This document shows, piece after piece, positions 4,286 through 26,839 of a stretch of DNA of 37,067 nucleotides. Position numbers and translations under genes: made by a program. Below the pieces are notes generated by a model. It was not told where the DNA came from. It did not search any database and saw only the letters and a list, made by a program, of their open reading frames with translations. Source of the DNA: Candidatus Heimdallarchaeota archaeon. GTDB lineage: Archaea > Asgardarchaeota > Heimdallarchaeia > Heimdallarchaeales > Heimdallarchaeaceae. Each line of letters starts with the position of its first letter. Position 1 is the first letter of the stretch. The stretch is from the NCBI GenBank assembly GCA_023705945.1, contig BPTM01000206.1:1-37067 (forward strand), in the 5' to 3' direction.

Positions 4286-4924
4286 CTAATTCAAGCTATC
4301 TCTTTCACCTTCCAAAACAGGTATTACATCATTAATAACATCAAAAGGGCAGTTTAACAGATACTCTTTAGATGTTTTCCAGAAATCATCAAACAGGGTT
4401 GAATGGTAACCAAGTGCCTCATAAGATAATGCTTGGACGAGCACCTCTAGCTTATCAACATAAGCAACAAATTTTGCTTCTTTTGAATCTTTATCTCTTA
4501 GTTCCGAAAATGTGTTTTTCCAAGTATTTTTTACAGTTTCATCAAGAATTAATGAGAGTAATTCATTGCTAGCAGTTGTAAGAACTTGATTTTTAAATTC
4601 TGTATATTGATCTATTCCCAACAGTATTTCCAGTTGTTTGTCAAAGTCTTGATATTGACATTCTGGTAAATCATGAATTATTGCAATCCGCATAACATTT
4701 TCAATTTTCAATTGATCAGTTGGATAAAGAGCATTATGAAGATCACCCAACAGAAGAGAAAGCATAGCTGTATTATATGAATGATCAGCAATACTTTCAA
4801 CATCAGATAAAGAAATGCCAACTCTTATCCAGCCCTGGCGAGGTAAACGCTTAAGCTGGATGGAACTCTGAATAAATCCATAGATCATCTGGTATAGCTC
4901 GTCCACTCTGCTCTCCTCTTTCAA
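4286..4924 (-). CDS. HD-domain hydrolase, HDDC2/YfbR-like (possible 5'-deoxynucleotidase)
   Basis: LPRQGWIRVGI...ESIADHSYNTAMLSLLL...VMRIAIIHDLPECQYQD: family-typical ADHS and HDLPE motifs. Confidence 0.75.
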   Translation of the reverse strand: MKEESRVDELYQMIYGFIQSSIQLKRLPRQGWIRVGISLSDVESIADHSYNTAMLSLLLGDLHNALYPTDQLKIENVMRIAIIHDLPECQYQDFDKQLEILLGIDQYTEFKNQVLTTASNELLSLILDETVKNTWKNTFSELRDKDSKEAKFVAYVDKLEVLVQALSYEALGYHSTLFDDFWKTSKEYLLNCPFDVINDVIPVLEGERDSLN

Positions 4925-5018
4925 TCTCGTCAGTAAAACCAGATGATGAAAGAGTTATTAAAAACATCGATGGGGGTAACCAGAAAGGGAAAAAGAGTAA
5001 AAAAAGAGAAGAATTGCC

Positions 5019-5927
5019 TTACATGAATTTTCTTATAAAATTCCATTGGCGTTCAGTATCAGCTTCCAAAGATTTGAGCTGATCTTCGGTGATAGATTTC
5101 AATCTTCCCTGCAGTTTTGTCCACTCAGTCACGGGCTCACGATTGGTTTTATCCTCGTATTTCTTACTTGGTCGACTGAGTTCCACTAGATTAGTTTCTC
5201 TGTCCCATTCGAATAATGGCCAGATACCTGTCTTCACAGCAAGTTGAGCTATTTTCACTGTATCTGCTGAATCTGATCTCCAGTTTGGAGGACACGGTGC
5301 ATCTATCTGAATAAGTTTGAAGCCTGTCATAGAGACAGCTTTCTTAACTTTGTAAACTAAATCCTCAAGATAACCAGAGCTAGCAGTAGCTACGTATCGA
5401 GCATTATTCGCCATCATGATGAAAGGAACCATTTTTCTTGGAGTTGTATTACCATAGGGGGTTGTTGCAGTTTTTGCTCCAATCATTGTATCTCCACTAC
5501 GTTGTCCGCCTGTATTTCCATAGACATTGTTGGAATAAATAATATGCAGAATATCTTCTTGACGATCACAAGCACCAATTTCTGTAGCAATTCCAATATC
5601 AGCTCCTGAACCATCTCCACCCCAAATAACTATTTTAAGGTCATCTTTTCCTTTCTTTTTCATTGCACGTTTAACACCAGAAGCGACAGCATCACTTGCT
5701 GCAAAAGCAGTATTAATCGTTGGAACATTAAATGCAGCTCCTTTTCCTCCACCTTGATAAACACTTGCGCAGCTTGCTGGCACAACTAATATCACCTTAT
5801 CAGCTATTGCACCAATAGCATGTCTAAAAGCAAGTGTAGAACCACATCCTGCACATGCAAAATGTCCTTTCAATAGAGCTTTCTTAGGTATATTCAATAA
5901 ATCTTTTTGAGTTACTTTCATTTGCAT
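5019..5927 (-). CDS. porB: Pyruvate/2-oxoacid:ferredoxin oxidoreductase beta subunit
   Basis: TPP-binding region GHFACAGCGSTLAFRHAIGAI, GGDGSGADIG, YSNNVYGNTGGQRSG; ordered after gamma, delta and alpha genes. Confidence 0.88.
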   Translation of the reverse strand: MQMKVTQKDLLNIPKKALLKGHFACAGCGSTLAFRHAIGAIADKVILVVPASCASVYQGGGKGAAFNVPTINTAFAASDAVASGVKRAMKKKGKDDLKIVIWGGDGSGADIGIATEIGACDRQEDILHIIYSNNVYGNTGGQRSGDTMIGAKTATTPYGNTTPRKMVPFIMMANNARYVATASSGYLEDLVYKVKKAVSMTGFKLIQIDAPCPPNWRSDSADTVKIAQLAVKTGIWPLFEWDRETNLVELSRPSKKYEDKTNREPVTEWTKLQGRLKSITEDQLKSLEADTERQWNFIRKFM

Positions 5928-22273: not shown

Positions 22274-23176
22274 TTATTTTCCTTTATTTCTTGCTTTTTC
22301 TTCTTTTCTTACTCGTCTCTTTGCTTCTTTTTCTTCGATTTTCCTTTCTTTTTCTCTTCTTTTCTCCCTTTCCTTCATGTATTTTTCTTTCTCTTTCTCC
22401 TGCTTTTGTTTCTCCTTTTCATCCAATTTCTTAACTTCTTTCTTCAGAATAACAGGAATGGGCAGGTCCTTTGTTTTCTCAGTAACTCTAGAGAAGAACT
22501 TCAAAGTTGTCATAGCAAACTTTGTTAAATGTAGTAAATCCGCTGGTTTCTTTGTTAAATTAAATTTCATCTCGAAATTAGGTTCATCAGTCCTTATAGA
22601 AATCCATTGTAATTCCTTTGGATAATCCTCCAAGCTTCTTATGAACATTTTACTGCTAATTAGTTGTTTTACAGCTCTTGCTCTATTTGACTTTATAAGG
22701 AATTTACTATTGACTTCAAGATTAGGGGTTGGAATATCGTCAAGTTCAACAAGATAATCAAAATCCTTTCTTATAGCTGATTTGAGACGATAAGGTATCA
22801 TCTCAAAAACTACTCTAGGTTTATCCTGAAAGTTTGCTGCAATTCCAAATGAATCTTTGTTTCTATAGAACAGTCCATCAACTAGCATTGTTGGAAAACT
22901 AGTTCTAGGTAAGAGAATTAGCCACACTGATGCGCTTTTAAGCAAAAAATCCTCGTTTAGTTGGCATCTTATCTCTACTTGTCTATCGTTTGGATCTTTT
23001 CTAGCATAATTGGTAATGTAAGGATCCAATGCTGTTAAGACATCATCAAAATAAGCTTCCTTTTTCTTTTTGTTTGCTATTTTTCCCCAAATATAAAATG
23101 CAATGTACAACCCTATGAAAAGTATAATAGGTATCAGCATTGTCAAGATGCTTAGAATTTCTTCACCATTAGCCAT
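22274..23176 (-). CDS. Membrane-anchored protein with basic C-terminal coiled coil; CCDC47-like (DUF1682) architecture, tentative
   Basis: N-terminal TM (ILTMLIPIILFIGLYIAFYIWGKIANKKKKEAYFDD), alpha/beta domain, and ~60 aa Lys/Glu/Arg coiled-coil tail (KLDEKEKQKQEKEKEKYMKEREKRREKERKIEEKEAKRRVRKEEKARNKGK). Confidence 0.45.
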   Translation of the reverse strand: MANGEEILSILTMLIPIILFIGLYIAFYIWGKIANKKKKEAYFDDVLTALDPYITNYARKDPNDRQVEIRCQLNEDFLLKSASVWLILLPRTSFPTMLVDGLFYRNKDSFGIAANFQDKPRVVFEMIPYRLKSAIRKDFDYLVELDDIPTPNLEVNSKFLIKSNRARAVKQLISSKMFIRSLEDYPKELQWISIRTDEPNFEMKFNLTKKPADLLHLTKFAMTTLKFFSRVTEKTKDLPIPVILKKEVKKLDEKEKQKQEKEKEKYMKEREKRREKERKIEEKEAKRRVRKEEKARNKGK

Positions 23177-23243: not shown

Positions 23244-23807
23244 TTAAATTTTCATCTCATTGCTCTTCTTTTTGATAATAATACGACCTAATCTAAGAAA
23301 AGCGTCGTGGACATTACCACCAGTTAAAGCGCATGTTGAGAAGTATTCTAAGAGATCAATATTCTTAAATTTATTTTTAAACTCACTAAGAAAGTTTTTG
23401 GATTGCTCATCAAAAAGCTGATTTTGTTCATACTCTAGAAGATCATGCTTATTTCCAAGAATCAATAAGGGGATTTTATAGTCTATTGCAGAATTAAGTT
23501 CCTCCAACCATTCAATTAGATTAGCAAAGGTCTCAGGTCTGCTTTTATCGAAAACTAGAAGACCACCTTCAGTTCCAACATATTGCTTGATTCTAATTTC
23601 TTGAAACTCCTTCTGACCACCCATATCCCATATCTGAAAAGTTATTTCCATGTCTTCATCCATATATTTGTGTGTAGCTAAATCTACACCCAAAGTACTC
23701 ATGTATTTTTCATCCAGATGCAAACCCATGAAAGAACGTTTCAAGGTAGTTTTTCCAGTAGCATAATCACCCAATAAAACTATTTTAGCTGCACCAAATA
23801 TGGACAT
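23244..23807 (-). CDS. Ras/Arf-superfamily small GTPase (likely ATG 23807; ORF track opens at 23870)
   Basis: G1 GDYATGKTTL, G3 WDMGGQ, G4 GNKHD, candidate G5 STCALTGGNV. Confidence 0.85.
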   Translation of the reverse strand: MSIFGAAKIVLLGDYATGKTTLKRSFMGLHLDEKYMSTLGVDLATHKYMDEDMEITFQIWDMGGQKEFQEIRIKQYVGTEGGLLVFDKSRPETFANLIEWLEELNSAIDYKIPLLILGNKHDLLEYEQNQLFDEQSKNFLSEFKNKFKNIDLLEYFSTCALTGGNVHDAFLRLGRIIIKKKSNEMKI

Positions 23808-23903
23808 AGGTATGAAAACACATGAAAGGGTGTTTATTAGTTTTTCTGATTTTCTCAGTTTTTGTAACAATATTTAACAATAAGTACCTAATTTGTCACG
23901 TGT

Positions 23904-25879: not shown

Positions 25880-26839
25880 ATGAAAATGAAAAACTGCTCA
25901 TTTCTTGGATGTGAAGAAGAGGAATCTTTACCTTTCAAATGTAAGTTATGTAGTCAAGCCTTTTGTGCTAAACACAGATTACCTGAACAACATGATTGTC
26001 CAAGAATTGGCTTGTATCAAACTGAGGAATATAAAAAAGCCAAACTATCACCAAAGAAAAAAGTAGAAGATAAAGAAGAGATTAAAAAAAGAAAAGACAA
26101 ATCAAAAAAGCAAAAAGGTCTTTACACTGCAAGAGACTTAGAGATGAAGTCAAAATATGTAGAACCACAAGACAGATTTCTATTTAGATCAGCAATGTTC
26201 ACTCTATTTTCACTCAAATACAATTTTATTAACATTATAATTGCTTCAATTTATTTTCTAATTATAGTAGGTTTGAGTACTTTATTTGACCTTACTGTTA
26301 TACAAAAGCTAAACATTGAAATCTGGCCTAATATGTTTCTATTATTAGTGATTGGATATCTGATAAGTATCAGTATTGTCTATTCTGGTCACATGATTGT
26401 TGAAACTCTTTATGCAAAAAAACTAGGAATACGTGCAACACAAACATTATGGTTACAAGGGATGTTGATAGGAATAGTAAGCATTTTTCTACCTATTATC
26501 ATGACACCCAATTTTTTAGTTTTTAAGGAATATGGAACTGATAATAAGAATAGAGGAAAGGTTGCTTTAAGTGGAGTATTATGGATTCTAGTTTGGCAGA
26601 CAATAGCATTGCTTTTTGTCATTTTCAAACTATCAGGCATACTTATTCCGTTTCCAATCTTCTATTTAGGTCTTGAAATTCTTGCTCCTTTCTTCTTCAT
26701 TTATCTTATCTTTTCTTTAATACCATTTGGTTTTAATCTTGGAAGATACATACGCACCTGGAATAATAAATTATTCTGGTATTTACTTGGTTCATCAATT
26801 TTCCTTTTCTTAACTTATATGGTACTTATTACTATTTGA
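25880..26839 (+). CDS. AN1-type zinc finger fused to site-2-protease-like (M50) membrane domain lacking catalytic residues
   Basis: AN1: CSFLGCEEEESLPFKCKLCSQAFCAKHRLPEQHDCP. TM part aligns by eye to S2P: YSGHMIVETLYAKKLGIRATQTLWLQGM (HExxH region) and IPFGFNLGRYIRTWNN (LDG region). Confidence 0.65.
   Translation: MKMKNCSFLGCEEEESLPFKCKLCSQAFCAKHRLPEQHDCPRIGLYQTEEYKKAKLSPKKKVEDKEEIKKRKDKSKKQKGLYTARDLEMKSKYVEPQDRFLFRSAMFTLFSLKYNFINIIIASIYFLIIVGLSTLFDLTVIQKLNIEIWPNMFLLLVIGYLISISIVYSGHMIVETLYAKKLGIRATQTLWLQGMLIGIVSIFLPIIMTPNFLVFKEYGTDNKNRGKVALSGVLWILVWQTIALLFVIFKLSGILIPFPIFYLGLEILAPFFFIYLIFSLIPFGFNLGRYIRTWNNKLFWYLLGSSIFLFLTYMVLITI

Follow-up and report, generated by a model that had tools for sequence, protein, structure and literature searches.

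A CCDC47 relative in a Heimdallarchaeota archaeon suggests that part of the machinery for multi-pass membrane proteins is older than eukaryotes

CCDC47 is a eukaryotic protein that assists the folding of multi-pass membrane proteins at the ribosome. The PAT complex (CCDC47-Asterix), to which it belongs, has been described as strictly conserved throughout eukaryotes (2025, PMC12572126), and prokaryotes have been stated to lack its components (2022, PMC9630114). In eukaryotes, the latch of CCDC47 sits between the ribosome and Sec61 and keeps Sec61 closed (PMC12572126, PMC7505659). A gene from Candidatus Heimdallarchaeota archaeon had been proposed, from its sequence, to encode a possible archaeal homolog of CCDC47. 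It lies in a stretch of 37,067 nucleotides (contig BPTM01000206.1 of assembly GCA_023705945.1), here called the window. We asked whether the protein truly belongs to the CCDC47 family and, if so, what it might do in an archaeon.

The gene (22274..23176, minus strand) is an intact open reading frame of 300 codons with an ATG start and a TAA stop. Orthologs were found in 44 of the 58 relatives searched, the close relatives that carry the gene being likewise Candidatus Heimdallarchaeota archaeon, and the median dN/dS was 0.07 for the whole gene and 0.15 for the tail region. The presence of orthologs in most related genomes, together with the overall dN/dS value, places the reading frame beyond chance and identifies a real gene under selection. 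We annotate its product as a CCDC47-family protein of 300 amino acids, based on the reading frame, the Pfam and fold matches, and the orthologs described below.

The protein contains all the elements originally predicted, i.e., an N-terminal transmembrane (TM) helix, a basic linker, an alpha/beta domain, and a charged tail. Hydropathy, flanking charge, and the AlphaFold2 (AF2) helix place a single TM helix at approximately residues 8 to 32 (23081..23155, minus strand), at the start of one long N-terminal helix that the model extends from residue 4 to 53. The positively charged C-terminal flank predicts an N-out/C-in orientation by the positive-inside rule, and a single TM helix followed by a cytosolic C-terminal domain was predicted by hydropathy and charge in all 41 family members (41/41). 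The TM helix is followed by the basic stretch GKIANKKKKE and by a predicted cytoplasmic alpha/beta domain with a C-terminal helix (residues 35 to 238; 22463..23074, minus strand), which was delimited from the AF2 model, Foldseek, and conserved columns. Residues conserved family-wide are R91, D108, and P199, plus G31 just ahead of the domain. The basic K/E/R tail forms a predicted helix at residues 253 to 299 (22280..22420, minus strand; pLDDT, ~65 to 86).

The Pfam model for CCDC47 is PF07946 (formerly DUF1682; curated cutoff, 27.7 bits). The unmasked window protein scored below this threshold (17.7 bits, E = 0.0021), whereas with the tail masked it exceeded it (29.0 bits, E = 7.5e-7), residues 17 to 214 aligning with profile positions 8 to 212. 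PF07946 was matched by 26 of 28 aligned relatives, some of them gathered with PF07946 itself and others with the window protein alone; any other Pfam family was matched by at most two. In profile-profile comparisons (hhalign) against residues 135 to 401 of human CCDC47 (query sequence identical to PDB 6w6l_7 over 483 residues), profile A1, built from 28 archaeal members, scored 38.3, and the broader profile A3, with 41 rows, scored 39.5. None of 150 shuffles that separately preserved TM and soluble composition reached the real score (mean, ~12; maximum, 23). The tail-masked check put forward with the original prediction thus came out in its favor by both methods.

When PDB sequences were searched with A1, the best match was CCDC47 (9i78_4), in three colinear segments but with an E value of only 0.018. 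With A3, designed helical proteins came first, owing to the TM stretch, and CCDC47 ranked fourth and fifth (E, ~0.3). The contribution of the soluble domain is visible mainly in the orthologs: deprived of TM helix and tail, the window's own domain gave no Pfam match, and hhalign without the TM helix scored 21 to 22, close to the shuffle maximum, so that support for the domain at the sequence level comes from orthologs and fold. The soluble part of an ortholog from another family (L120), without its TM helix, scored 27.8 bits against PF07946, just over the cutoff, and that of a second ortholog (L119) scored 23.6 bits. Judged from sequence at the level of the family, the domain outside the TM helix and tail is therefore probably homologous to that of CCDC47. 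A 24-letter stretch of human CCDC47 also parallels LLNRENLIHHIISKFRPHYDMLFT of L120 in the alignment. Three pairings of segments with human CCDC47 had initially been drawn by eye. The alignment retained the first, around the TM helix and the GK.KN motif, and the third, LLFTFNV with FEMKFNL. The middle one was out of register: the 23-letter segment corresponds to FEMIPYRLKSAIRKDFDYLVEL, and FLIKSNRARAVKQL to a later human segment, LAILSEMGEVTDGMM.

The AF2 model of residues 1 to 238, computed from 28 sequences and no templates, had a mean pLDDT of 89.8 and a pTM of 0.81. Foldseek comparison with 350,542 PDB chains placed the three CCDC47 chains at ranks 1 to 3, each with a probability of 1.00: 7tm3 (mammalian; E = 6.8e-10), 9i78 (Chaetomium; E = 1.8e-7), and 6w6l (human; E = 6.8e-6). 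The best TM-score for CCDC47 was 0.68 by query length, and the full-length model ranked its PDB matches in the same order. The CCDC47 structures among these matches date from 2020 onwards. Training of the AlphaFold2 ptm weights used structures that predate any known CCDC47 structure, so the model should not simply echo CCDC47. The structural comparison suggested for the central domain hence agrees with the profile searches, the fold being that of CCDC47, and these lines of evidence together uphold the proposal of an archaeal homolog. The product of the window gene is almost certainly an archaeal representative of the CCDC47 protein family.

Comparison with CCDC47 of the PAT complex (PDB 7tm3/7tut, 6w6l, and 9i78) shows how far the likeness extends. 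Both proteins share the order of elements, the domain fold, the stretch around R91 and D108, and the C-terminal helix, and the GKNKN that follows the TM helix in human CCDC47 has its equivalent in a G.K.N-type motif of the archaeal protein. The latter, in contrast, has neither a signal peptide nor an acidic lumenal segment ahead of the TM helix, its loops are shorter, and it is predicted to reside at the plasma membrane rather than the ER. The tail is also shorter, with 62 residues (28 K/R and 16 D/E) in the window protein versus 87 (29 K/R and 17 D/E) in human CCDC47; both tails are nonetheless basic and helical with a net charge of +12, a value that holds for the window's family. Across 15 sequences of this family the tail has almost no gaps and evolves under purifying selection. 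In the full-length model the tail helix is 47 residues long, and the alignment with Chaetomium CCDC47 grows to 344 columns, but the rmsd rises to 9.8 Å. The tail helix is a candidate for the equivalent of the latch helices of CCDC47, its low-complexity sequence preventing a claim of homology. A long tail is restricted to the window's family; other archaeal families have a short basic C terminus. Since families without the long tail could act through the domain alone, the latch is perhaps a later or lineage-specific feature.

A Ras-family small GTPase gene lies upstream of the window gene and in the same direction (23244..23870, minus strand; Pfam Ras, 6e-32), a neighbor that neighborhood comparison found to be kept across the window's family; a DegV protein is encoded downstream. 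Neighborhoods vary between families, the identified neighbors being GTPases, a KaiC-type ATPase, and metabolic genes, and no conserved linkage to secY, other Sec genes, or an insertase was found in the loci examined. A gene for a KaiC-like ATPase (cluster c4) is often the immediate neighbor (L122:5183-5845, with relatives in families f2, f3, f4, f6, and f27), and in several loci it is adjoined by a nucleotidyltransferase gene (c6).

Other observations concern individual loci. In one genome (G171), the single instance of this kind, an EMC3/TMCO1-like gene lies ~5.5 kb from the CCDC47-like gene. Directly downstream of its CCDC47-like gene, L120 encodes a protein of peptidase family M28 that has several hydrophobic segments (4343-5566, minus strand), and the same cluster recurs close to the L111 and L135 members. 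The eukaryotic BOS complex also contains an M28-like protein, nicalin, a similarity that is possibly a coincidence. In family f5, two Arf-like GTPase genes that score with the SRP receptor beta model adjoin the CCDC47-like gene (L112:3865-4413 and 4417-4986), small GTPases being abundant in these archaea. AN1-type zinc finger proteins with hydrophobic segments are encoded near CCDC47-like genes in two families (window positions 25880-26839 and L129:2235-2795).

We surveyed potential translocon partners in 232 genomes of the phylum. An EMC3_TMCO1-type insertase of the Oxa1 superfamily was present in 219 of the 232, and EMC6/OPTI-like proteins were detected in 94, in 53 of them over the cutoff; the window's own genome has both, its EMC6 match being over the cutoff. 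As general archaeal proteins, these GEL homologs (TMCO1/EMC3 and OPTI/EMC6) are weak evidence. Neither Asterix (PF03669), the partner of CCDC47 in the PAT complex, nor TMEM147 (PF09767), a component of the BOS complex with nicalin and NOMO, exceeded the cutoff in any of the 232 genomes. We do not claim membership of the archaeal protein in a PAT complex or in a multipass translocon in the eukaryotic sense.

The predicted topology and domain, which are those of CCDC47, and the tail charge in the window's family lead us to propose for the archaeal protein a role of the same kind at the plasma membrane; by analogy, the window protein probably acts like CCDC47 at the ribosome and SecY. The N-terminal helix would anchor the protein in the plasma membrane and place the alpha/beta domain on the cytoplasmic side, next to the ribosome exit site and SecY, both of which it may contact. 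The protein would cooperate with an archaeal TMCO1/EMC3-EMC6-like insertase, and the closely spaced TM segments of multi-pass proteins, its presumed substrates, would be inserted beside a closed SecY instead of through it. The basic helical tail of the window's family might reach between the ribosome and SecY in the manner of the eukaryotic latch helices.

A true CCDC47 homolog could also have another job in archaea, for instance as a general ribosome receptor tethered to the membrane or as a regulator of other membrane proteins; its translocon role would then have arisen in eukaryotes once Asterix and the BOS complex had been recruited. This alternative, which we regard as unlikely yet worth serious consideration, would account for the failure to detect Asterix and TMEM147 among the 232 genomes, for the restriction of the long tail to one family, and for neighbors of the kinds listed above, with no Sec genes among those identified. 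It sits less well with a fold and a predicted topology, joined in the window's family by the tail charge, that all match a protein contacting the ribosome and Sec61, and with insertase homologs encoded in the same genomes. A CCDC47-like action at the ribosome and SecY is our preferred reading.

Convergence, i.e., an unrelated single-TM protein whose generic helix-grip-like domain and charged tail resemble CCDC47 by chance, is very improbable. The first Foldseek match after the CCDC47 chains was TtfA (6t84; mycobacterial transport factor A; E = 1.2e-3, or 2.2e-4 with the full-length model), a weak fold match to the alpha/beta domain with 7 to 8% identity. In favor of convergence stand such weak structural matches to TtfA and to PYL/START-like domains and a single-sequence phmmer search of the PDB with the window protein, which matched the charged tail only and returned nothing relevant. 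However, the CCDC47 chains lie orders of magnitude ahead of TtfA, the next structure, and the PF07946 match, which is independent of the fold match, is colinear along both the TM helix and the domain. Convergence is largely refuted by the combination of these two results.

The distribution of the gene bears on its origin. The survey included, besides the 232 genomes of the phylum, 14 control genomes, at least three of them archaeal. PF07946 alone matched 29 of the phylum genomes (in seven the cutoff was exceeded unmasked) and none of the 14 controls. Family profiles raised the count to 81 to 82 of 232; members span 27 to 28 genera and 20 families of the phylum, and those from different families are mostly 14 to 35% identical to the window protein. 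The gene was found in 54 of 60 genomes of the window's class, the six without it being 64 to 87% complete, and it was patchy outside the class (27 of 172). Two large families, f18 and f19, gave no credible match with the family profiles. In family f28 the gene was detected in 2 of 47 genomes by two methods; a direct search with an f28 member again returned 2 of 47, which discounts an artifact of the first-look filter and makes the patchiness look real. Two candidate members, G000:C46 and G051:C127, were rejected as coiled-coil matches. Some genomes of families f5, f26, and f29 carry two divergent CCDC47-like copies (e.g., L104 and L105 versus L112 and L113; genomes G182, G179, and G231), suggesting old duplications. 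Eukaryotic contamination or recent transfer from a eukaryote, conceivable for a draft assembly estimated to be 79% complete and 5.7% contaminated, has a negligible likelihood given the uninterrupted reading frame, the neighborhoods common to related genomes, and the breadth and divergence of the family.

We found no earlier report of an Asgard CCDC47 or PAT complex in the open-access literature, supplementary tables aside, and some of these archaeal proteins may already carry the family label through automatic Pfam annotation. Asgard homologs of TRAP and OST, several of them from Heimdallarchaeia, have been described (Eme et al. 2023, PMC10307638; TRAP also in PMC11186639), and the subunits of these complexes are likewise translocon accessory proteins traced to Asgard archaea; the portions of the main texts of the two papers that we drew on report no Asgard CCDC47.

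That a Heimdallarchaeota archaeon encodes a CCDC47 relative suggests that part of the machinery for multi-pass membrane proteins is older than eukaryotes. The window's class has been proposed as the archaeal source of eukaryotes. Heimdallarchaeia may already run a minimal multipass translocon, in which SecY works with a TMCO1/EMC3-EMC6-type insertase and with CCDC47 as a gate where the ribosome exit lies, and which eukaryotes would have inherited and to which they would later have added Asterix and the BOS complex; we consider the chances of this scenario to be about even. With CCDC47 present in almost every genome of the class, hypotheses on how the eukaryotic membrane-protein insertion machinery originated become testable. 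Two questions follow: did gating of Sec61/SecY by CCDC47 come before the ER, and were Asterix and the BOS complex added later? The archaeal CCDC47 also offers a small protein with which the core function could be reconstituted without the eukaryotic partners.
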